This document shows positions 3,822 through 37,792 of a stretch of 41,030 bases of DNA, piece after piece. Location: positions 1-41,030 of the IMG/VR virus record IMGVR_UViG_3300035698_001033; one strand, written 5' to 3'. A model generated the notes under the pieces. That model was given only the letters and a program-made list of their open reading frames with translations. It did no database searches and had not been told where the DNA came from. Numbering within the stretch: the stretch's first letter is position 1; every line of letters begins with the position of its first letter. The translations under genes were made by a program, and so were the position numbers. This stretch comes from a virus.

Positions 3822-5429
3822 ATGGCATTAGATTTTTTTGGATTTGAAATAGTACGAAAAGGCAAGGAAAACAAAGAAAATAAGTCGTTTGTTCCAGCGG
3901 TAAATGACGATGACGGCGGTTATGTAGTTGACGCTGGCGGCCATTATGGAACATATTTAGATCAAGACGGCGGCCAAGCGCAAAACGATAAAGAACTAAT
4001 TATAAAGTATCGTGATATAGCAATGCAAGCTGAATGTGATGCAGCTGTAGACGATATAGTAAACGAAGCAATCGTGTCAGACGATTCTTCATCTCCTGTT
4101 AGCATTACGCTAGACGATTTAAAACAACCAGACAGAATAAAGAATATTATAAGAAAAGAATTTGAATATATCGGCGAATTGCTGAATATGAATTTTCAAG
4201 GTCATGATATATTTAGACGTTGGTACGTTGACGGTAGGTTATATTACCACAAAATTATAGACCCAGACAATCCTAAAAAAGGTTTGATTGAAGTACGACC
4301 AATTGATTCAACCAAGATCAGAAAGGTAAAAGAAGTAATAAAAGAAATTGACCCTGTAACCAAAGCAGAGATAATTACAGGAACAAACGAATTTTATATC
4401 TATGAAAAGAATGGAATTGGTGGAATTGGCGCGGCCAACACAGGACTTAAAGTTGCTCCAGATTCTATTACATATGTAACATCTGGATTATTTGATCCTA
4501 CTAGAACGCAAGTGCTTTCTCATCTACACAAAGCAATGAAAGCGGTTAATCAATTGCGTATGATGGAAGACAGCTTGGTTGTCTACCGTATGTCACGGGC
4601 ACCTGAAAGACGTATATTTTATATAGACGTTGGTAATCTACCTAAAGGCAAAGCCGAGGAATATCTAAGAAATATCATGGCTCGGTATCGCAACAAAATG
4701 GTCTACGATGCATCTACTGGTGAACTTAAAGACAACAATAAACATATGTCTATGCTTGAAGATTTTTGGTTACCAAGACGCGAAGGCGGTCGAGGAACAG
4801 AAATATCAACTCTCCCAGGTGGTGACAATCTAGGACAGATTGACGATATTATATATTTTCAAAAGAAACTATACAAGGCATTAACTGTACCTGCATCTAG
4901 ATTAGATACTGAAAACTCAGGTATGATCTCGTTAGGTCGTGCAAGTGAAACTACAAGAGAAGAACTTAAATTTCAAAAGTTTGTTTCACGTATACGAAAA
5001 AAGTTTTCAAATCTTTTCATAGACATGCTTCATACTCAGTTAATACTCAAAGGTATTGTAACTGAAGAAGAATGGTTAGTAATCAAGCACGATATTTCGG
5101 TTAATTTTATTAAAGATTCTCACTTCGCAGAAATGAAAAATGCGGAATTGTTAAGGGAAAGAATCCTTACTCTTAGAGAAGTTGACGAATACGTTGGCAG
5201 ATACTACTCCGTTGAATGGGTAAGAAAGAATATTTTAATGCAGAATGATGAAGATATCGCATTAACCATCGAACAAATACAGGCCGAAAAGGACGCGGCT
5301 CCAGACGATGACGACGATTTTGGTGAATCCACAGATTTGGTTGTGGATGATAAACCATTAGACTTAGAAGAAGATAAGGCAGATAAATCAGATGATGAAA
5401 TTAATGAGCTGAATAAATTATTAATATAA
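3822..5429 (+). CDS. 20: Portal vertex protein (gp20)
   Basis: Portal protein, the dodecameric ring at the special head vertex through which DNA is packaged and on which the prohead starts. At 535 aa it matches T4 gp20 (524 aa). Recognisable segments are QAECDAAVDDIVNEAIV near residue 70, FRRWYVDGRLYYHKIID, VRPIDSTKIRKVKEV, YRMSRAPERRIFYIDVGNLP (about 255-275), the LEDFWLPRREGGRGTEISTL stretch and LTVPASRLDTENSG. The C-terminal tail is very acidic (DDDDDFGES and EEDKADKSDDE). Late promoter and a stable hairpin precede it; the start has a GAGG upstream. The head-assembly genes 21-23 follow. Confidence 0.97.
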   Translation: MALDFFGFEIVRKGKENKENKSFVPAVNDDDGGYVVDAGGHYGTYLDQDGGQAQNDKELIIKYRDIAMQAECDAAVDDIVNEAIVSDDSSSPVSITLDDLKQPDRIKNIIRKEFEYIGELLNMNFQGHDIFRRWYVDGRLYYHKIIDPDNPKKGLIEVRPIDSTKIRKVKEVIKEIDPVTKAEIITGTNEFYIYEKNGIGGIGAANTGLKVAPDSITYVTSGLFDPTRTQVLSHLHKAMKAVNQLRMMEDSLVVYRMSRAPERRIFYIDVGNLPKGKAEEYLRNIMARYRNKMVYDASTGELKDNNKHMSMLEDFWLPRREGGRGTEISTLPGGDNLGQIDDIIYFQKKLYKALTVPASRLDTENSGMISLGRASETTREELKFQKFVSRIRKKFSNLFIDMLHTQLILKGIVTEEEWLVIKHDISVNFIKDSHFAEMKNAELLRERILTLREVDEYVGRYYSVEWVRKNILMQNDEDIALTIEQIQAEKDAAPDDDDDFGESTDLVVDDKPLDLEEDKADKSDDEINELNKLLI

Positions 5430-14291: not shown

Positions 14292-14513
14292 ATGAAGGCA
14301 AAATACAAAACATATCTATTATCTTCTAATAGATATACAGAAGCATTTGAAATGCTAGTAAGAAATGACCAGCCATTTGGCCACAATGTTGATGAATATT
14401 CAATTCGACTAAATCTTAATAACGCGTCAGATTATGTTATTAAGATAATGACTGATCTTGAATTGAAAAGCAAAGGACTCAGAAACTGGCCTGAAAGTAA
14501 AGATCTATCATGA
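14292..14513 (+). CDS. Small conserved-looking protein, unknown
   Basis: 73-aa ORF (starts MKAKYKTYLLSSNRYTEAFE) whose stop overlaps the gene 47 start (ATGA), so translation is probably coupled. An in-frame TTG at 14277 would add five residues, but it has no ribosome binding site; the ATG at 14292 has GAG 11 nt upstream. It is a mixed alpha/beta soluble protein with no recognised motif. Its place between 55 and 47 suggests a role linked to recombination or late transcription, but nothing in the sequence proves it. Confidence 0.55.
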   Translation: MKAKYKTYLLSSNRYTEAFEMLVRNDQPFGHNVDEYSIRLNLNNASDYVIKIMTDLELKSKGLRNWPESKDLS

Positions 14514-15571
14514 AAATTGCATTTTTAAATGATACTCATTGTGGTATACGAAACTCGTCTGAGATCTTTATTAGGTATCAGGCCGACTTTTATGAGAATG
14601 TGTTTTTTCCTTATTTAGTTAAACATGGCATCACTACAATTATTCATCTGGGTGACTATTACGACCACCGAAAGTTTATAAACTTTAAAGCACTTCACGA
14701 AAATCGTAAGCACTTTCTAGACAACCTAAAGAAGTTTGGTATCACTATGGATATCATACCTGGGAATCATGATGTTTTTTATAAGAATGACAACGATCTT
14801 TGTTCACTAAAAGAGTTGCTAGGTCATTACATGAACGAGATAAATATAGTAATGGAGCCACGGGTTATGAACTATGACGGTTGCAATATTGCCCTGTTGC
14901 CGTGGATTAATAACTATAACTATAAAGAAAGCATGAACTTTGTGCAGAACTGTAAAGCAGACTTTCTTGGAGCACACCTAGAGTTGGTGGGTTTTGATAT
15001 GATGAAAGGTATTAAAAACCAGCATGGTATGGGTATGGAGGCATTCAAGCGCTTTGAACAGGTGTGGTCTGGGCACTTTCATACAAAGTCTTCTCAGGGC
15101 AATATAACATATCTTGGGTCACAACTTGAATTTACATGGGCTGATGCTCATGATCCTAAGTATTTCCATATATTTGATACAGATACTCGAATCATGAGTC
15201 CAGTACATAATTCGGTGACTCTATTTGAGAAGATAATATATGATGATAAGACCACCGACTATAGCACAGTTGATGTGCAAAAGTTCACAGACAAATTTAT
15301 AAAGATCGTGGTTGTACATAAATCCGACCCTTACTCTTTTGATAAGTTTGTTGATAGGATTAATGATGTGGGCGTCCATGATCTAAAGATCGCGGAATCG
15401 TTCGATGAATTTGCAGGGATGAACACCTCAGACAATAACATTACGGTAGAAGATACCACGGAGTTATTGGATGGTTACGTGATGAATGTAGAAACGGATT
15501 TGAATAAAGAAAGAATCAAGCAATTGATGCAAGAAGTCTACATTGAGGCTTTAAATTTAGAGGTAGTTTAA
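14510..15571 (+). CDS. 47: Recombination nuclease subunit (gp47, Mre11-like)
   Basis: Nuclease subunit of the gp46/gp47 complex (Mre11/Rad50 relatives) that resects DNA ends for recombination-dependent replication. Calcineurin-type metallophosphatase motifs are clear: FLNDTHCG (D8, H10), IIHLGDYYDHRKF, IPGNHDVF, LGAHLELVGF and WSGHFHTKS. The 353-aa length fits T4 gp47 (339 aa). The acidic C-terminal part should contact gp46. It overlaps the small gene upstream by 4 nt. Its partner gene 46 is separated from it by the YkuK-like gene and an HNH insertion. Confidence 0.95.
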   Translation: MKIAFLNDTHCGIRNSSEIFIRYQADFYENVFFPYLVKHGITTIIHLGDYYDHRKFINFKALHENRKHFLDNLKKFGITMDIIPGNHDVFYKNDNDLCSLKELLGHYMNEINIVMEPRVMNYDGCNIALLPWINNYNYKESMNFVQNCKADFLGAHLELVGFDMMKGIKNQHGMGMEAFKRFEQVWSGHFHTKSSQGNITYLGSQLEFTWADAHDPKYFHIFDTDTRIMSPVHNSVTLFEKIIYDDKTTDYSTVDVQKFTDKFIKIVVVHKSDPYSFDKFVDRINDVGVHDLKIAESFDEFAGMNTSDNNITVEDTTELLDGYVMNVETDLNKERIKQLMQEVYIEALNLEVV

Positions 15572-15574
15572 ATA

Positions 15575-16069
15575 ATGTTTAATCAGATTGAAATTGAAGA
15601 AATTAAAGAATTCCTTACCACAGTAGAGGACGACTCAAAGATCTATTTAGGTTGTGACTCCGTTAAGTATAAGAAAGGCAATACGTGGTATGCCAGATAT
15701 ACTACCGTGGTGGTAATTCATCTTAGCGGCCGCCATGGTTGTAGAGTATTTGGTTACAGCGATACTGAACGGGATTATGACCCAAACAAAGCAAAACCTA
15801 GAATGCGTCTTATGAATGAGTCGTATAAGGTCGTTGGTTTGTATATGGAATTAGCAGAAGAATTAGAAAACTTTGAATGTGAAATCCACCTTGACATTAA
15901 CCCTAATAAAAAGCATAACTCCAGTATCGTTATTAACGAAGCGACTGGTTATGTAATGGGTATGACTGGCATGAAAGCCAAGGCGAAACCAGATGCTTTT
16001 GCTGCAAGTTACTGCGCAGACTGGATGGTTAAACATAAAGGTCATCAGGCGGTAACTTGGAAGCACTAA
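15575..16069 (+). CDS. YkuK-like RNase H-fold protein
   Basis: 164 aa. The sequence IYLGCDSVKYKKGNTWYARY near residue 23, with a catalytic-type Asp28, then VVVIHLSGRHGCRVFGYSD, LYMELAEELENFECEIHLDI (second Asp) and the C-terminal MKAKAKPDAFAASYCADWMV (a further Asp) match the YkuK/DUF458 family, which has an RNase H-like fold. The biochemical function of YkuK is not established. In several marine T4-like phages a gene of this family lies between 47 and 46, as here. It probably acts on nucleic acid together with the recombination genes; that is inference. Confidence 0.75.
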   Translation: MFNQIEIEEIKEFLTTVEDDSKIYLGCDSVKYKKGNTWYARYTTVVVIHLSGRHGCRVFGYSDTERDYDPNKAKPRMRLMNESYKVVGLYMELAEELENFECEIHLDINPNKKHNSSIVINEATGYVMGMTGMKAKAKPDAFAASYCADWMVKHKGHQAVTWKH

Positions 16070-16070
16070 T

Positions 16071-16115
16071 ATGATAAGTTTTACTAAACTGAAATGGAAA
16101 AATGGAAATGTATAA
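16071..16115 (+). pseudogene. 46: Detached 5' end of gene 46 (start codon and ten codons)
   Basis: ATG at 16071 opens MISFTKLKWKNGNV and then stops. The first 11 residues match the expected gp46 N-terminus and also the start of the intact gp46 frame after the HNH gene (IIHFTKLRYKN at 16776-16808); 23 of 33 bases are the same. I read this as the original or a foreign start of gene 46, cut off by the HNH insertion. It could also act as a translated leader ahead of the HNH gene. Confidence 0.7.
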
Positions 16116-16118
16116 ATA
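16111..16118 (+). promoter_or_regulatory. T4-type late promoter ahead of the HNH gene in gene 46
   Basis: Exact TATAAATA 23 nt before the HNH start codon, right at the point where gene 46 similarity breaks off. Confidence 0.7.
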
Positions 16119-16140
16119 ACTCCATACAAAAGAGATTAAT

Positions 16141-16737
16141 ATGCGTTTATCAGAAGAAGATATATTATGGGTTAAAGACCATACCTATGATGAAATTATG
16201 AAGAACTTTAATATATCTAGACCTACAGTAAGCAGATTATTAAAGCATTATCAAATATGTGCAAAGCGCCAAGTTGGAAGTGGACCAAAACACGGGCCAA
16301 AAAATAACAAAATTTGCGGGGAGTGTGGAGTGTTAATGTTAGTCGTTCCATCTAGCAATCGTAAATATTGTTCTAGATCATGTATGCATATAAATGAGGA
16401 ATATCTAACTAAAGTACGAAATATTGATAGATCATATACGCAGACTGAGTCATTCAGTAAGGCTCAAAGCAAAGACACTACGCCAGAATTTAAAAAATTT
16501 GGAGGTAGAGTGCATCGACTTACACAGAAAATATATGAAATGTACAAAGAGGAAATTAATCCGAACGATCATCCCCGAACTATATGTGGTGTTGATGGCG
16601 GATACCAACTGGACCATATTATAACGATTAAATTCGGATTTGAAAACGGCCTTTCAGCTGAGGAATTGTCTCAAAAAGATAACTTAAGGATGTTACCTTG
16701 GAAAGACAATCTGATGAGAAATTGGTATGAGAAATAA
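16141..16737 (+). CDS. HNH homing endonuclease at the start of gene 46
   Basis: 198-aa HNH endonuclease. The N-terminus (EDILWVKDHTYDEIMKNFNI, SRPTVSRLLKHYQI) is a helix-turn-helix like those of resolvases and other HNH proteins. A zinc-binding pair of CxxC-type motifs follows (CGECGVL and CSRSC). The nuclease core is GGYQLDHIITIKFGFENG with NLRMLPWKDNL near the C-terminus, shared with the HNH protein at 2572-3225. It has its own late promoter and a modest AAAGAG ribosome binding site. It sits precisely between an isolated copy of the gene 46 start and the rest of gene 46. Confidence 0.88.
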   Translation: MRLSEEDILWVKDHTYDEIMKNFNISRPTVSRLLKHYQICAKRQVGSGPKHGPKNNKICGECGVLMLVVPSSNRKYCSRSCMHINEEYLTKVRNIDRSYTQTESFSKAQSKDTTPEFKKFGGRVHRLTQKIYEMYKEEINPNDHPRTICGVDGGYQLDHIITIKFGFENGLSAEELSQKDNLRMLPWKDNLMRNWYEK

Positions 16738-16775
16738 CTTAATGCAAAATTACATAATGAATTGGGGTACTACCT

Positions 16776-18491
16776 ATTATACACTTTACTAAACTTCGAT
16801 ATAAAAACTTTCTCAGTACGGGCGATGCTTTTACTGAGATTGCTCTTGATCGATCTCAAACTACACTAGTTGTAGGCAAGAATGGTTCTGGAAAGTCTAC
16901 TATGACAGATGCTTTGTCATTTGCACTATTTGGCAAACCTCATAGAAACATCACAAAGCCACAACTGATAAACTCTATTAACGGAAAGAATTGTGTAGCG
17001 GAAGTTGAATTTAATATAGGAAAGCAATCTTTTCTTATTATACGAGGCATCAAGCCTGCTCGTTTTGAAATATATCAGAATGATACATTAATCAACCAAG
17101 ATGCAAAAGCAAGGGATTATCAGAAGTTTCTTGAACTCAACATAATTAAGATGAACCACAAATCGTTTCATCAGATTGTAGTTTTAGGTTCTAGTTCTTT
17201 TATTCCGTTTATGCAGCTGCCTGCTGGTCATCGGCGCGAAGTAATAGAAGATCTTTTAGATATAAACATATTTTCTAAAATGAATAGTATCATGAAAGAT
17301 CGACTTAATAAGAATAAAGATCATCTAAAAGAAGTTGTCTATCAGAACGATCTTCTTAAAGACAAGATAGATATGCAGAAAGGTCATATAGACAAAGTAG
17401 CAGTACTTAATCAGAACACTTTGGTTGGTATACAGACAGAAGTTGAAAGCCTTGCAGCAGACATAACTAAGTATGATCAACACAACAGCGACTTACAGTC
17501 AGAGATCGATACAAGGTTTGATGTGGTATTAAAAGAATTGAATAAATCTAACGATCAAAATCTTAAGTTGGTTGAATACGCCGCACAATTCAAACAAAAA
17601 ATGAATGATATAGTAAAGGATGCTAAGTTCTACACGGACAATGATCATTGTCCTTCGTGTGGTATTCAAATTGAGGAAAATACCAAGAATCATAATATCA
17701 GATCGTGTGAATCAAAAGCAACAGAGTTGCAACAGGCAATGGCAACTCTTGAAGATACTTCAAATTCAAACAAATTGGCCATGACTGAACTACAGCAAGA
17801 GATGGACAAAATGAATGATCATAAAGGGACCATTCGAAATAACATGTCTGTTATCAAAAGACTGAATAGTATTATCAATAATAAGAATGCTGGTCTCATT
17901 AAATTAAGTAATCAGGATGGAGATATTGGTGTAGCAACCGAAAATCTAAATGATCTTATAAATCAAAGAGACATTATGGTTGAAACTAAATCTAAACTTA
18001 ATGAAGAGCAAACGTATTTTAATGCTTGTAATGAGATGTTGAAGGACACAGGCATAAAGACAAAAATCATAAAAGAGTATCTTCCTGTCATGAATATTAT
18101 TGTAAATAAGTATTTACAGATTCTTGACTTCTTTGTGGACTTCAACATCGATGAAAACTTTAACGAGACCATCAGATCAAGATATAGAGATGCTTTCAGC
18201 TATTCCTCATTCAGTGAAGGGGAGAAGATGAAGATTGATATTTCCTTGTTATTTGCGTGGCGACAGATCGCGAAGTTAAAGAACAGCGCTAGCACCAACT
18301 TGTTGATATTGGATGAAACATTTGACTCTAGTCTTGATCAGGACTCAGTTGATAACCTTATGAAGATAATGGACACTCTGGGCACCGAAAGCAACACCTT
18401 TATCATATCTCACAAAGGCGATATGCTCGCGGATAAGTTTCGATCTAAGATAGAATTCGTCAAGTCTCGTAACTTTAGTGTCATAAAATAA
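16776..18491 (+). CDS. 46: Recombination nuclease ATPase subunit (gp46, Rad50-like), apparent ATT start
   Basis: ABC-type ATPase partner of gp47. Read from ATT at 16776 the product is 571 aa (T4 gp46 560 aa): IIHFTKLRYKNFLSTGDAFT, Walker A GKNGSGKST (about residue 34), coiled coils around the zinc hook CPSC (about residue 292), signature FSEGEKMKIDIS and Walker B LLILDETFD. There is no ATG, GTG or TTG between the in-frame stop at 16758 and residue 42; the first ATG (16902) would delete Walker A. A GGGG at 16764-16767 is well placed for an ATT start at 16776. So either a rare ATT start is used or the gene is damaged by the upstream HNH insertion. The downstream reading frame is fully intact. 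Confidence 0.9.
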   Translation: MIHFTKLRYKNFLSTGDAFTEIALDRSQTTLVVGKNGSGKSTMTDALSFALFGKPHRNITKPQLINSINGKNCVAEVEFNIGKQSFLIIRGIKPARFEIYQNDTLINQDAKARDYQKFLELNIIKMNHKSFHQIVVLGSSSFIPFMQLPAGHRREVIEDLLDINIFSKMNSIMKDRLNKNKDHLKEVVYQNDLLKDKIDMQKGHIDKVAVLNQNTLVGIQTEVESLAADITKYDQHNSDLQSEIDTRFDVVLKELNKSNDQNLKLVEYAAQFKQKMNDIVKDAKFYTDNDHCPSCGIQIEENTKNHNIRSCESKATELQQAMATLEDTSNSNKLAMTELQQEMDKMNDHKGTIRNNMSVIKRLNSIINNKNAGLIKLSNQDGDIGVATENLNDLINQRDIMVETKSKLNEEQTYFNACNEMLKDTGIKTKIIKEYLPVMNIIVNKYLQILDFFVDFNIDENFNETIRSRYRDAFSYSSFSEGEKMKIDISLLFAWRQIAKLKNSASTNLLILDETFDSSLDQDSVDNLMKIMDTLGTESNTFIISHKGDMLADKFRSKIEFVKSRNFSVIK

Positions 18492-18540: not shown

Positions 18541-18625
18541 ACATATCTGGCTTGAATCCTTCACGGTAATCACCAAGCAACTCTAAAAGCATGCAGCGTA
18601 CTCAGCGTATCTTATATAACTAAAT

Positions 18626-18641
18626 GTTATAACGTTATAAC
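18626..18641 (+). promoter_or_regulatory. 16-nt palindrome, site A of the GTTATA...TATAAC family
   Basis: GTTATAACGTTATAAC, a perfect palindrome, ends exactly 30 nt upstream of the -35 box at 18672. CCAAGTT follows. Putative transcription-factor site; see the related sites at 18756, 21099 and 36211. Confidence 0.65.
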
Positions 18642-18671
18642 TCCAAGTTCTGTCTAAATCAAAAATAGTTG

Positions 18672-18700
18672 TTGACATTATACTGAAATCCCTATATAAT
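18672..18700 (+). promoter_or_regulatory. Sigma70-type promoter A upstream of the CobT-like gene
   Basis: TTGACA (18672-18677), 17-nt spacer, TATAAT (18695-18700). First of two tandem promoters. An ATG lies at the expected +1 (18707). Confidence 0.85.
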
Positions 18701-18706
18701 GGTCGT

Positions 18707-18853
18707 ATGAATTGGAAAACACCTACACCAAATAATCTTACCGATATAACATTTAGTTATATCGTTATAACTACAAGTTTGCAAATTGTTATTGACATTG
18801 TACTTGGGTTATGGTATAATACATGTATAGAAATTAAGGAATTGAAGAAATGA
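18707..18853 (+). CDS. Possible leaderless 48-aa peptide over promoter B
   Basis: Open frame of 48 codons (starts MNWKTPTPNNLTD, then a hydrophobic stretch TFSYIVITTSLQIVIDIVLG, ends EIKELKK) beginning at the predicted transcription start of promoter A and ending ATGA-coupled to the next gene. It runs through operator site B and promoter B, so the frame may be accidental. Without expression data I give it low confidence. Confidence 0.25.
   Translation: MNWKTPTPNNLTDITFSYIVITTSLQIVIDIVLGLWYNTCIEIKELKK
18756..18771 (+). promoter_or_regulatory. 16-nt near-palindrome, site B of the GTTATA...TATAAC family
   Basis: GTTATATCGTTATAAC ends 20 nt upstream of the -35 box at 18792. A further half site GATATAAC (18743-18750) makes a second inverted repeat with GTTATATC. 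ACAAGTT follows. Confidence 0.65.
18792..18820 (+). promoter_or_regulatory. Sigma70-type promoter B for the CobT-like gene
   Basis: TTGACA (18792-18797), 17-nt spacer, TATAAT (18815-18820). It shares TATGGTATAATACATGTATA with the promoters at 21145 and (almost) 36257. Confidence 0.93.
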
Positions 18854-21084
18854 ATAAACTCATTGTTAATCTACTAGCCAAAGAAGATATTACGGTTCAA
18901 GTTGGAAACTACAAAACAGCCTTCTTTGTTCCTAAAACTCGTACTCTTGGTCTTCCTTTGTGGACCTCTGAATCTAAACATCTTAATGACCTGATGATTG
19001 GCCACGAAGTTGGCCATGCTCTTTACACTCCAACACAAGGTTGGCATGATGCTAAAGAAGAAGTCCCTGGCATACCAAGATCGTTTATTAATATAATTGA
19101 AGACATTAGAATTGAAAAGTTGGTGATTAGAACCTATCCAGGACTTGTTCTTTGTTTCAAACGCGGTTATATGGATTTGTTAAATAGAAACTTCTTCGGT
19201 ATTGACGACAAAGATGTTAACTCTCTACATTTTATAGATCGACTAAACATTAAAGCCAAGGTTCGTAATTTGTTAGATATCAACTTTACAGATGAAGAAC
19301 AACCTTTGCTTAAAGCTGCAATGGCGGTTGAAACTTGGGAAGACACTCTTAGAGTTTGTAGAATGCTTGGTGGTTATGCCGACGAGCTAAAAGAAAGACA
19401 AAAGGAAAAGGAAAAGGAAATGAAAGATTTGATCGACAATCTTGAAGATGAAGAGCCAAGTGATGAAGTCGCTGAGGATTCTGCCAGTGATGAAGTCGCT
19501 GAGGATTCTGTCAGTGATGAGCCAAGTGATCAAGCCGAGGAAGCCGAGGAAGATTCTGGTGGTGATGAGCCAAGTGATCAAGCCGATGAGGATTCTGCCG
19601 GATCAATGGGCAAAAAAGGTTCGCATGATGTGGATATGTCAAAGAAAGATGATTTTGAAACTCCACCCGAACCTTTTACAGATTCGGCGTTTCGTGAACA
19701 CGAAAAGAATGGCGATCTAACTCAAAACGGTGGCGAGTTCATTCATTATATTAAAGCTGTTTCGAAAAAGACTACTAAAACTTGTGTTGTTGGTTATAAA
19801 GAAGTTCTTGATAATCGAAAGAACTATCAAGAAACCGCTTTAATCGAAAAAAAGATTACTTTTAAGGAGATGTCTACACACAACAAAAAAAAATATGATG
19901 ATTTTATGGAAACGTCTAAATCTTCTGTATCGTTGATGATTAAGGAATTTGACTTAAAAAAACATGCTTTTCAATATCAACGGGCCACGACTTCTTCTAA
20001 AGGTGTGCTTGACGTTAACCGCATGTTTTCTTACAAATATGACGACGATGTTTTCAAATCTGTTACTAATTTGGCGGATGCTAAGAGCCATGGAATGGTT
20101 ATGTTTATCGACGCTTCTGGCTCTATGAACGGTGATTTAGGAGATGTTATTAAGCAGAGTTTGATACTGGCCGCATTTTGTAAACGAGCTTATATACCCT
20201 TTGATATTTATACTTTTACGTGTTCTTCTTCTAATGAATCAAAACATAGGGAGAAAGTGATAGGGATCACTCATACACTTCAAGATCAAGATATTGACGT
20301 TAGCGATAGTATTATTAGACATATACTATCATCACGGATGAATAAAGATGAATACACTTCAAGTTATCATTTTCTTTTGGAATTAGCTATTGAAGGACCT
20401 TATGGTGATTTAATTCGCAGGAACTATCCTATACAAGATTATCGATTAGGTGGCACACCTCTGGTCGAAACCATCATGATGGCTAGACATATAATTCGGG
20501 ATTTTAAGAGATTAAATAATGTGCAAAAGGTAACCGCGATATTTTTGACTGACGGGGACGGCGGTGATGTAAATCATCACCTAGACCCTAGTATGAATGC
20601 TCATCGAGTAGACCCAGCGTACTTCAACCGGCAGTTCGGCCGGTTGCCACAACATTATAAAGTAGAAATTGATGGTAAAATATACACATATAATACTCGA
20701 GAAGATCGATATAAAAATCTGCAAAAAGATATGTTTGAATATCTTCAGACTGAATTTAATGTTATTGGTTACTTTGTAGCGACAAATAAAAGACAAATGG
20801 AAAAAAAAATGAATTATGCAGCGTTTTGTGGATATAAAAAGCCCTTTGATATATACTCTATGAACAAGGAATTTAGAAAAAATCATTTTGTTCCTGTCGA
20901 TAACGTTCTAGGCTATAACCGTCTGTTTTTTATGAATACCAAAGATCTTAATGCTGAAAAGAAAGAATTTGAAGTTCAGGAAAATGCCACCGCGACTCAG
21001 ATACGTAGCGCATTTAAGAAACACAGCGTTGGTAAAAAATCTACCCGATTGTTTGCTACCAAGTTTATCGAAATGATTGCATAA
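18850..21084 (+). CDS. CobT-like VWA-domain protein with HExxH metallopeptidase motif
   Basis: 744-aa protein, probable partner of the AAA+ ATPase encoded next. The N-terminal domain has GHEVGHALYTP (H52, E53, H56, a zincin signature) and FINIIEDIRIEKLVIRTYPG. The centre (about 185-260) is a highly acidic, repeated linker (SDEVAEDS, DEPSDQAEE). The C-terminal half is a von Willebrand A domain with an intact MIDAS: MFIDASGSM (about 418-426), GGTPLVETI and FLTDGDGGD. The acidic linker plus VWA next to a CobS-type ATPase recalls CobT of the cobalt chelatase and other MoxR/VWA systems, and such pairs are frequent in cyanophage-type genomes. The real substrate is unknown; cobalamin synthesis is unlikely. 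Two promoters with palindromic upstream sites drive it. Confidence 0.8.
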   Translation: MNKLIVNLLAKEDITVQVGNYKTAFFVPKTRTLGLPLWTSESKHLNDLMIGHEVGHALYTPTQGWHDAKEEVPGIPRSFINIIEDIRIEKLVIRTYPGLVLCFKRGYMDLLNRNFFGIDDKDVNSLHFIDRLNIKAKVRNLLDINFTDEEQPLLKAAMAVETWEDTLRVCRMLGGYADELKERQKEKEKEMKDLIDNLEDEEPSDEVAEDSASDEVAEDSVSDEPSDQAEEAEEDSGGDEPSDQADEDSAGSMGKKGSHDVDMSKKDDFETPPEPFTDSAFREHEKNGDLTQNGGEFIHYIKAVSKKTTKTCVVGYKEVLDNRKNYQETALIEKKITFKEMSTHNKKKYDDFMETSKSSVSLMIKEFDLKKHAFQYQRATTSSKGVLDVNRMFSYKYDDDVFKSVTNLADAKSHGMVMFIDASGSMNGDLGDVIKQSLILAAFCKRAYIPFDIYTFTCSSSNESKHREKVIGITHTLQDQDIDVSDSIIRHILSSRMNKDEYTSSYHFLLELAIEGPYGDLIRRNYPIQDYRLGGTPLVETIMMARHIIRDFKRLNNVQKVTAIFLTDGDGGDVNHHLDPSMNAHRVDPAYFNRQFGRLPQHYKVEIDGKIYTYNTREDRYKNLQKDMFEYLQTEFNVIGYFVATNKRQMEKKMNYAAFCGYKKPFDIYSMNKEFRKNHFVPVDNVLGYNRLFFMNTKDLNAEKKEFEVQENATATQIRSAFKKHSVGKKSTRLFATKFIEMIA
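19448..19600 (+). repeat. Degenerate tandem repeats encoding the acidic linker
   Basis: Repeated units such as AGTGATGAAGTCGCTGAGGA and GATGAGCCAAGTGATCAAGC occur back to back inside the CobT-like gene. They encode SDEVAEDS and DEPSDQA units and could change length by slippage or recombination. Confidence 0.75.
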
Positions 21085-21098
21085 CGTTATAATTAAAA

Positions 21099-21114
21099 GT
21101 TATATTAATATAAC
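21099..21114 (+). promoter_or_regulatory. 16-nt palindrome, site C of the GTTATA...TATAAC family
   Basis: GTTATATTAATATAAC, a perfect palindrome, ends exactly 30 nt upstream of the -35 box at 21145. ATAACGTTAT (21081-21090), also palindromic, lies just before it. Confidence 0.65.
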
Positions 21115-21144
21115 AACTAATTCTAACTAAACTGAAATTAGTTA

Positions 21145-21173
21145 TTGACATTGTGCCGCGACTATGGTATAAT
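21145..21173 (+). promoter_or_regulatory. Sigma70-type promoter for the CobS-like gene
   Basis: TTGACA (21145-21150), 17-nt spacer, TATAAT (21168-21173). Spacer and downstream bases match those of promoter B at 18792. Confidence 0.93.
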
Positions 21174-21209
21174 ACATGTATAGAAATTGAGAAATAAGAG
21201 ACTTATATT

Positions 21210-35277: not shown

Positions 35278-36211
35278 TACTGCATTCACCATATTTAATG
35301 ATTTATATGACAACAAGACTCACAAATTGGCAGAGTTTAAAACCTTTGCTGAATTTGAGTCGCTGTTGTATGGTTTAAGTAAGGTACCGTGTGCTGGAAA
35401 GAAAAATGCTTGTTTGATATCTCCTGCTACTTATATTGAAGGAACAACAAGAGCGAACAAAAATGTTACCGGATGGGGCGCATGGGCCGCGCTCGACATA
35501 GATGATCATGAATGTAAAGGAGACTTAAAAGATGAACTTCATAATAGATTTGGTGCTTATTACTATATTTGTTATAGCACAGCTTCAAGTACTAAAGACA
35601 AACCTAAATTCAGGTTGGTGTTTCCTGTTAAAAATATCATCAAGACGGAAAACATTAGAGACTTTTGGTATGCTCTCAACACCACTTTCGGTTCAATGGG
35701 AGATCAACAAGTTAAAGATTTTAGTCGTATGTACTATATTCCTGCGTGTTATGATGGTGCTAATAATTTTATCTTTACAAACACTGGCGCTGTACTCGAT
35801 GTTGACGAACTTATAAAGAAACACCCTATGCCGCCTACAGAACGAAAAGTCGGTGGCAACTTCTTCGAGCGCTTACCTGCTGCTATGCAGGAAATGATTA
35901 TACAACAACGAAAGGACAATCAGGAACAAACTAAAGTGTCTTGGACGTCTTTTCATGACTGCAAGTTCGTCAAGAAGTACATGATTGATCAATACAAGGA
36001 AATATCAGGGACTGGCTGGTATCACAAAATGTATTCCTTAATGGTTCAGATAGCCGCGAATGCTGTACGAATGGAGTACCCTATAACATCACATGAAATT
36101 GCACAATTATGCCGTCAAATCGATCTAGAGACTGGAAACTGGTACGGCCAAAGACCTTTTGAATTGGAAGCAGAAAGAGCAATAGAATACATTTACCGTA
36201 ATAACTATTAG
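35270..36211 (+). CDS. AEP-primase-like protein
   Basis: 313 aa, probable replication protein. A central [20 protein letters not shown] holds a D-x-D pair like that of archaeo-eukaryotic primases; it is followed by [20 protein letters not shown] with VFPV, the strand-loop containing Ser/Lys/Arg typical of phage and plasmid AEP-type primases, and by [13 protein letters not shown]. The C-terminal helical part ([20 protein letters not shown], then [16 protein letters not shown]) resembles PriCT-like tails. No zinc-finger primase of the gp61 type is seen in the window. I am fairly sure of the general family and unsure of activity. Its stop overlaps operator site D. Confidence 0.55.
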
Positions 36212-36226
36212 TTATATCGATACAAC
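36211..36226 (+). promoter_or_regulatory. 16-nt near-palindrome, site D of the GTTATA...TATAAC family
   Basis: GTTATATCGATACAAC (one mismatch to a perfect dyad) ends exactly 30 nt upstream of the -35 box at 36257. ACAAGTT follows. Confidence 0.65.
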
Positions 36227-36256
36227 CACAAGTTATAAGAAAACTGAAATCAGTTG

Positions 36257-36285
36257 TTGACATTATACCACACCTATGGTATAAT
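36257..36285 (+). promoter_or_regulatory. Sigma70-type promoter for the DUF262-HNH gene
   Basis: TTGACA (36257-36262), 17-nt spacer, TATAAT (36280-36285). ATTATACC (36262-36269) and GGTATAAT (36278-36285) form a perfect 8-bp inverted repeat that includes the -10. Confidence 0.93.
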
Positions 36286-36316
36286 ACATGTATAAATTAA
36301 TTGAAGAGTCTATATT

Positions 36317-37792
36317 ATGTCTGATGTGAATAAATTATTAGGAATGGGTAAAAACAAACCTTATGTAAAAAGAGGACTTAAGTTCTTTCGTGAAACCATC
36401 ACGGTTAAAGAATACTTATTACTGTATAACATTATCGATACTCAACCTGTTGGTCAGCGTTTAGACGTTGCTCCGAAATTGGAAGGTACCGAAAAAACAC
36501 CTTCGAAGGCGCAAGGTATTATCTCTACGATGATGAAAGGTTATGATATCGGTCAGATCACTATTCACAAAATTCCAAAAAAATCCGCGCTTAAACCTTA
36601 TCAGTTCGATGGAAAGAGAATCTCTCAGAAGGGTACTGGTCTAGTTCCGGCTGATTCTTACACATTCGCAAGTATTGATGGCGGCAACAGAAAAAGATAT
36701 ATTTATGCTTTTGTGAATAACCAGTTTCATGTTGATGGAAAACTTTGGGTGGATTATTCAGACGAAGAAAGAGATGATTTCTTGAAGTATCCTTTGCTTT
36801 TTGCCGTATATGTTAACTTAACCCCAAGTGAAATTGGTGATATATTCAGAACATTGAATAAGACGACTCCAGTTAACAGACAAGAAACTCTTAACTCTTA
36901 TGGAGACATTGCAATCGCCAACGCGGTTAGAGAAACTGCGCGATTGGTTGCGGGCATTAACTCAACGTGTCACCCACTTTTCGATTATAGTGTTAAGAAT
37001 CTGGCTTGGTTGACATTCGACCCAAGCCGACTCAAAATAGATGAAATTGTTGCTAGAATATACTATAGATATCACAGTGATGATAAAGGAGGTATTGGTT
37101 TAGCCGCTGAGAAACAACTTTTAGAGATGTATTCTGATGAAGATTTGGACTTTAAAAAGGTTGATAATTTAAAGAAAAAGGTACATAAGACCTTGGATCA
37201 TGTCAAAAGAATGGCTGAAGTCAAAAAGATGAAATTGAATAGCGGTCTTGGTAAAAGAGAATTTGAGTTGTTTAAGAGGGTTTGGATGTACATGGAAAAG
37301 GAGTTCGGCTCATTCAAAATAATCGATGATGCGGCGTATTTTGATGCATTGAAAAAAGTAATGGATGAAAAATTCTTCAAACCTGTTGCTGATATGGAAG
37401 AGCCTGAGAATCAGGTATCTCCTTACAATCAAAACAAGACAATAGGTCTTCAGTTCAAAGATACATTGGGTGAATATGATGATGCCGAAAGAATGAAAAC
37501 ATGTTTGGGTTGGTTTACACAATATCTTGATTTTACCCAATTGATTACAATCAAAGACACAAGACGATTCTTTTCGAAGACAATGCGAGAATCCAAACTG
37601 GCGGAACAAGGTTATAAATGTGCAGTAGATGGAAAACCATTAAAAATGGAAGATGCTCACGGCGGTCACCTTGTTGCTCACTCTAGGGGTGGAAAGACAG
37701 AATTTTCGAATCTTGTAATGATCTCGGCTAAACACAACATCGCTATGGGTAGTATGTCTTTTGCGCTTTATAAAGAAATTAATGGATATTAA
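36317..37792 (+). CDS. DUF262-HNH protein (GmrSD/ParB-like fold plus HNH nuclease)
   Basis: 491 aa. The N-terminal half looks like a DUF262 (ParB/GmrS-type) domain: SIDGGNRKRYIYAF (about residue 120) in place of DGQQRLTTL, and YVNLTPSEIGDIFRTLNKTT with PVNRQETLNSY, the hallmark I..F..LN....LN..E. The middle is helical and charged. The C-terminus (about 430-485) is an HNH nuclease: QGYKCAVDGKPL, GGHLVAHSRGGKTEFSNLVM and KHNIAMGS. DUF262 proteins with nuclease tails include modification-dependent (type IV) restriction enzymes such as GmrSD. In a phage it might attack host or rival DNA or act in replication; the role is unproven. It has its own promoter with an upstream palindrome. Confidence 0.75.
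   Translation: MSDVNKLLGMGKNKPYVKRGLKFFRETITVKEYLLLYNIIDTQPVGQRLDVAPKLEGTEKTPSKAQGIISTMMKGYDIGQITIHKIPKKSALKPYQFDGKRISQKGTGLVPADSYTFASIDGGNRKRYIYAFVNNQFHVDGKLWVDYSDEERDDFLKYPLLFAVYVNLTPSEIGDIFRTLNKTTPVNRQETLNSYGDIAIANAVRETARLVAGINSTCHPLFDYSVKNLAWLTFDPSRLKIDEIVARIYYRYHSDDKGGIGLAAEKQLLEMYSDEDLDFKKVDNLKKKVHKTLDHVKRMAEVKKMKLNSGLGKREFELFKRVWMYMEKEFGSFKIIDDAAYFDALKKVMDEKFFKPVADMEEPENQVSPYNQNKTIGLQFKDTLGEYDDAERMKTCLGWFTQYLDFTQLITIKDTRRFFSKTMRESKLAEQGYKCAVDGKPLKMEDAHGGHLVAHSRGGKTEFSNLVMISAKHNIAMGSMSFALYKEINGY

Follow-up and report, generated by a model that had tools for sequence, protein, structure and literature searches.

The gene 46 start region

We analysed positions 1 to 41,030 of the IMG/VR virus record IMGVR_UViG_3300035698_001033, a stretch of 41,030 nucleotides from a T4-like phage referred to here as the window, and focused on the 5' end of its gene 46, a DNA repair and recombination gene that encodes an SbcC/Rad50-like ATPase. 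The gene 46 frame begins without an ATG behind an HNH-like endonuclease gene, and a detached gene 46 start lies on the far side of that gene (Table 1). An initial annotation of this DNA had described the detached start, a late promoter box and the HNH-like open reading frame (ORF), and all three were located in the sequence and its ORFs. It had also described a frame of 571 codons that opens with ATT and is preceded by GGGG, which we found as claimed. The frame is open from the ATT at 16776 to 18488, with the stop at 18489-18491, and is closed upstream by the in-frame codons TAA (16755-16757) and TGA (16758-16760).

The gene 46 product is a member of the SMC/Rad50 ATPases (phrog_77, E 7e-155; SMC_N, 1e-15); Walker A, the CxxC hook (C292/C295) and the FSEG signature are invariant in A1. 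The statement that no NTG codon occurs in the frame until past Walker A (residues 34-41) proved right, whereas the position given for the first one, residue 42, is residue 43 when the ATT is counted as residue 1. This codon is the ATG at 16902, and a start there would delete Walker A. Because the gene 46 profile aligns with archaeal Rad50 chains from residue 4 onward, the N-terminus is part of the fold.

The ATT at 16776 lies in the exact column of the ATG of L004, a relative without the HNH gene whose protein is 81% identical; in other relatives this column holds ATG, sometimes GTG or TTG. Over codons 2-41, the window differs from L004 by 19 synonymous-only and 6 amino-acid differences and from L005, another relative without the HNH gene, by 16 and 5, respectively. 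The GGGG Shine-Dalgarno sequence is within the range found for other AUU starts. With no usable AUG, GUG or UUG, a conserved position and a compensating Shine-Dalgarno sequence, ATT 16776 appears to be the best start of gene 46, as the initial annotation had proposed, and initiation would take place at AUU. The start region (16738-16830) is weakly folded, 197 of 200 shuffles being at least as stable (z 1.8), which would favour initiation.

The bases of the detached start (16071-16103) read ATG ATA AGT TTT ACT AAA CTG AAA TGG AAA AAT, and its stop lies at 16113-16115. When peptides from all six frames were scored with a gene 46 N-terminus profile, this stub reached 27.1 and the runner-up 11.7, so it is not a chance resemblance. 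Recomputing the identity between the two 33-nt gene 46 starts gave the previously reported 23 of 33; the next best ungapped match on the plus strand is 20 of 33. The stub opens ATG ATA AGT TTT, where L004 opens ATG ATA AGT TTC, and it stands directly behind the RNase H-like gene, where L005 has its gene 46 start. It is best read as the old gene 46 start, displaced by the HNH insertion.

The window shares stretches of 8.2, 8.6 and 9.7 kb without a difference with three further IMG/VR contigs (L002, L003 and L006, respectively), which carry the same ATT. Because of this identity, a lone assembly error was rejected as unlikely, and the sequence error that the initial annotation had named as a possible refutation is improbable, although these contigs could be repeated samples of a single population. 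In both 20-kb blocks tested, the 198.8-kb contig from which L006 comes showed 100% identity.

Table 1. Features around the gene 46 start in the window (the slash marks the proposed insertion point).
Feature	Position	Strand	Basis or remark
Gene 47 (SbcD/Mre11-like phosphoesterase)	14510..15571	+	ORF; Pfam Metallophos
RNase H-like gene, between genes 47 and 46	15575..16069	+	Pfam PF04308, E 4e-19
Putative detached native gene 46 start, MISFTKLKWKNGNV followed by a stop, now a 14-codon orphan ORF	16071..16115	+	ORF; N-terminus profile
TGGAAAAAT/G, putative insertion site after gene 46 codon 11	16095..16104	+	Same bases end the L131 stub
T4-type late promoter box TATAAATA, upstream of the HNH gene	16111..16118	+	Box count against shuffles
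HNH-like endonuclease gene, 198 amino acids	16141..16737	+	N-terminal helix-turn-helix, Cys-rich middle, C-terminal LDHI...NLRMLPW...N motif
Out-of-frame mini-ORF MQNYIMNWGTTYYTLY (would need a +1 frameshift to enter gene 46)	16742..16792	+	ORF
GGGG Shine-Dalgarno sequence, duplex energy -6.0 kcal/mol against the anti-Shine-Dalgarno	16764..16767	+	8 nt before the ATT
ATT, inferred gene 46 start codon	16776..16778	+	Homologous to the ATG of relatives
Gene 46 (SbcC/Rad50-like ATPase), 571 codons	16776..18491	+	Pfam SMC_N; phrog_77

The RNase H-like gene is present in the window and in L005 and is missing from L004, so insertions seem to be frequent at the junction of genes 47 and 46. The window contains 14 TATAAATA boxes against 5.6 expected, a number that none of 100 shuffles reached. 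AT-rich intergenic repeats lie at 18614-18855, 21095-21201 and 36190-36320 and recur at least 10 times across the 198.8-kb sister contig; some of them carry TTGACATT-like boxes and are possibly early promoters.

Near-cognate starts in other gene 46 lineages

The initial annotation had attributed the lost start codon to the HNH insertion. An ATT start as a one-off result of the insertion was not supported, as starts of the same type recur in numerous gene 46 lineages that have no HNH gene. We found at least 23 non-redundant gene 46 starts with ATT, ATC or ATA in the start column and without a usable upstream NTG, a lower bound drawn mostly from a pattern scan that asked for such near-cognate starts, and compared them with 119 NTG starts. 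In 11 of these 23, the first downstream NTG lies past Walker A or is absent. In L082, L084, L085 and L086, for example, none of which has the HNH gene, gene 46 opens with ATT ATA over the gene 47 stop and has no upstream in-frame NTG. On a tree of 137 proteins, from which residues 1-12 were left out, the start-type label requires 14 changes, 11 of them on well-supported branches; these counts carry no direction. Near-cognate gene 46 starts thus appear to have arisen independently many times, with at least 11 changes. Most of these lineages have no HNH gene, so HNH insertion does not explain AUU starts in general.

A sample not selected for start codon contained 2 gene 46 copies starting at ATT (L225 and L261) among 80, and gene 47 at the same loci, the sole control, gave 0 clear near-cognate cases among 96; these unselected data prove nothing about a special status of gene 46 compared with other phage genes. 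None of the 13 regions of named isolates examined has a non-AUG gene 46, all cases being metagenome contigs. The annotated gp46 of Synechococcus phage S-WAM1 (L287, KU686210.1) starts 504 bp too far downstream and a normal ATG is present; this candidate for an isolate with a non-AUG gene 46 was rejected as probably a misannotation in the public record. Three near-cognate lineages (L119, L120 and L178) carry differing small genes between genes 47 and 46, one with a GGCASS metal-binding-like motif and two Cys-rich.

Near-cognate starts are accompanied by stronger Shine-Dalgarno sequences. The mean duplex energy was -7.3 kcal/mol for near-cognate starts (n=23) and -3.1 for NTG starts (n=119; p 1.6e-10). 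With strong defined as -5.5 or lower, strong Shine-Dalgarno sequences precede all 18 near-cognate starts on the tree compared to 23% of the others (independent-pairs median p 0.008), and the difference persists both with and without gene 46 overlapping or abutting gene 47. The eight GTG or TTG gene 46 starts all have values of -5.6 or lower. Non-abutting gene 46 copies have near-cognate starts more often than copies that abut gene 47 (12/21 vs 24/98, p 0.007). Low RNA structure was rejected as a general cause of AUU use, with folding values for positions -30 to +30 of -5.1 compared to -5.3 for NTG starts and no clear difference. The compensation in gene 46 matches reports from cellular genes, in which weak starts pair with stronger Shine-Dalgarno sequences (PMC5622118), and from S. 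aureus, in which AUU and AUA starts depend on an extended Shine-Dalgarno sequence and reach, at some sites, approximately 10% of AUG in reporters (PMC13009471). Because near-cognate starts evolved many times with a compensating Shine-Dalgarno sequence in T4-like phages, such a start is probably tolerated and perhaps selected.

Probable HNH insertion and the present 5' end

The HNH-like protein carries an LDHI...NLRMLPW...N motif that is conserved in three relatives, and the protein weakly matches the HNH endonuclease family phrog_1271 (E 6e-4); a Pfam search gave no HNH match. A second occupied locus is found in the distant phage L131 (minus strand, reverse-complement bases 4699-5016), in which a stub, an HNH gene and a near-cognate gene 46 restart occur at the same codon. 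There, the gene 47 stop is followed by GTGATAGTATTTCGTTTAATATTATGGAAAAATG (VIVFRLILWKN), an 88-codon HNH ORF whose ATG overlaps the stub end, the sequence GAGGGG and then the gene 46 restart ATC ATT ATC TTT. The HNH proteins of L131 and the window are 57% identical over 87 residues, and both stubs end with TGGAAAAAT/G. The comparison with relatives lacking the HNH gene, which the initial annotation had suggested, supplied the empty site: L004 and L005 have an uninterrupted gene 46 that starts with ATG. The HNH gene is best read as a homing endonuclease gene that inserts after codon 11 of gene 46 and leaves a replacement 5' end; its cleavage activity and the insertion route we infer from these arrangements.

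Searching all loci for stubs returned the window and L131 only, and an 838-kb control gave one match, so for most AUU starts there is no sign of a past HNH invasion. In another type of phage, the next closest HNH relatives lie directly before gp46-like genes, namely a 56% identical one in L050/L051 (L051:2407-3270) and a relic in L052/L053 (L053:2990-3090; 62% over 29 residues), behind which the gp46-like gene starts with TTG. In cultured T-even and Sinorhizobium phages (JoYop, vB_EcoM_005 and phiM12), more remote relatives with about 32-51% identity occupy a position between genes 18 and 19, an insertion site that differs from that in the window. It is therefore the close members and not the whole family that go with the gene 46 start. 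No member of the family was confirmed in bacterial genome contigs.

The present 5' end seems to differ in its affinities from the remainder of the gene. Over codons 12-80, gene 46 of the window matches L004/L005 at 164-167 of 207 positions and the distant L011 at 135 of 207, whereas codons 1-11 of the downstream copy match L004/L005 at 21 of 33 and L011 at 28 of 33, a short sequence. The earlier suggestion of a divergent copy of the gene start at the present 5' end is supported. A stub that is native and a downstream copy that is foreign or recoded would fit these values, 33 bases being few.

We consider it likely that a homing HNH gene with its own late promoter entered gene 46 right after codon 11 and severed the resident ATG and codons 1-11, which would now form the orphan mini-ORF at 16071. 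Past the HNH gene, gene 46 would resume from a second and divergent 5' end without an ATG and would be translated from AUU 16776, aided by the strong upstream Shine-Dalgarno sequence and probably at a reduced rate. An AUU, AUC or AUA start may then be a tolerated, perhaps selected, means of setting gp46 output.

Several observations weigh against this explanation. The HNH assignment comes from a motif and weak profile matches, and the structure model of the protein is poor (predicted local distance difference test score, pLDDT, 44), too poor for a structure search. The L131 stub has GTG as its first codon and shares only 20 of 33 bases with the L131 restart, and gene 46 of L051, behind the same HNH family, starts at ATG. 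The near-cognate set derives mostly from the scan that asked for it, so its share is uncertain (2/80 unselected), and several near-cognate lineages have TTG or GTG at residues 7-31 as a possible late start; the window gene 46, unlike those lineages, has neither before residue 43.

Translation could instead begin at ATG 16742 or 16757 and enter gene 46 by a +1 frameshift, or a one-base error in the GGGG could conceal such a start. GAGA lies upstream of ATG 16742, the mini-ORF terminates within gene 46, 14 nt past the ATT, and a G run one base shorter would put ATG 16757 in frame. We nevertheless regard this as improbable, as the three further contigs are the same at every base, an out-of-frame ATG whose frame crosses the start in this phase is missing from most other AUU-type lineages, and the mini-ORF peptide has no gp46 counterpart while the ATT stands in a conserved column. 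Initiation at one of the neighbouring codons AUA 16779 or AUU 16761, both in frame and near-cognate, is likewise improbable, since 16761 lies upstream of the Shine-Dalgarno sequence and 16779 one codon beyond the relatives' start column; use of 16779 would change little.

The lack of a canonical start ahead of Walker A might also mean that gene 46 is broken and yields at most a fragment that begins at Met43. This is very unlikely given the 571 open codons, the predominance of synonymous differences when the first 41 codons are compared with L004/L005, the strong and correctly spaced Shine-Dalgarno sequence and at least 11 further origins of this state; moreover, the 198.8-kb sister contig yielded no second gene 46 copy. 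An intron or ribosome bypass that joins the stub to the main frame around the HNH gene, with the 11-nt exact stretch common to both 33-nt starts in its favour, is scarcely credible: the HNH ORF fills 597 of the 672 intervening bases, the gap far exceeds the known 50-nt ribosome bypass of T4 gene 60, the join would duplicate residues unless the hop fell exactly between the repeats, and splicing, named by the initial annotation as a possible refutation, is unsupported because no Rfam intron (group I/II) was matched in the window region or L131 and the downstream frame has its own complete N-terminus.

Insertion after codon 11 with a restart at AUU 16776 is thus the explanation that we prefer. 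A more far-reaching version, which we put forward tentatively and think rather doubtful, is that the HNH gene acts as a 'cleave and rescue' cassette. It would cut gene 46 at the W-K-N codons and supply a 5' end that is recoded and resists cutting and that has a ribosome-binding site and a near-cognate start of its own. In this way it could spread, as it would destroy the start of an essential gene and put another in its place. AUU and AUC starts without an HNH gene might then be partly scars of past invasions, or they might serve independently to hold gp46 at a low level or to couple it to initiation factor IF3.

Relation to known systems and implications

The closest parallel in arrangement is found in fungal mitochondria, in which endonuclease ORFs with a foreign gene C-terminus (Allomyces atp6; Glomus atp6, atp9, cox2 and nad3) lie inside an essential gene, as proposed for the window, with the displaced native end on one side and a copy of that end, divergent but functional, on the other (PMC3630166). 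In Glomus, the duplicated ends show 64-81% DNA identity to those of a close relative compared to 91-98% for the native ends (PMC3630166). In those cases, the 3' end of a mitochondrial gene is replaced, whereas in the window it would be the 5' end of a phage gene, with a new non-AUG start and a presumed cleavage. Free-standing HNH and GIY-YIG endonuclease genes of T-even phages (mobE in Aeh1 nrdA, mobA at gene 60) likewise lie next to or inside essential genes, some of them with late promoters, and insertion into a gene has been described as splitting it into two polypeptides (PMC2988022). In contrast to such splits, gene 46 of the window seems to be restored as one gene by the second 5' end.

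Near-cognate starts held up by a strong Shine-Dalgarno sequence are also known from E. coli infC and pcnB and from S. aureus cvfC1, ccpN and infC (PMC13009471), whereas in phage gene 46 they would have recurred at least 11 times within one gene. Across 36 groups of cellular genomes, a change from AUG to AUU was recorded once in 61,358 ancestral AUG starts (PMC5622118). Our literature search returned no replaced 5' end, no AUU-started gene 46 and no such start in a phage recombination gene. For T4 gene 26, an internal AUU start was reportedly described by Nivinskas in 1992.

Gene finders that accept only ATG, GTG and TTG would truncate such genes behind Walker A or drop them. The near-cognate gene 46 starts with their strong Shine-Dalgarno sequences are a natural comparative set for the trade-off between start codon and Shine-Dalgarno strength, and the repeated HNH insertion at one gene 46 codon suggests how a selfish nuclease may inhabit an essential gene without an intron or intein.
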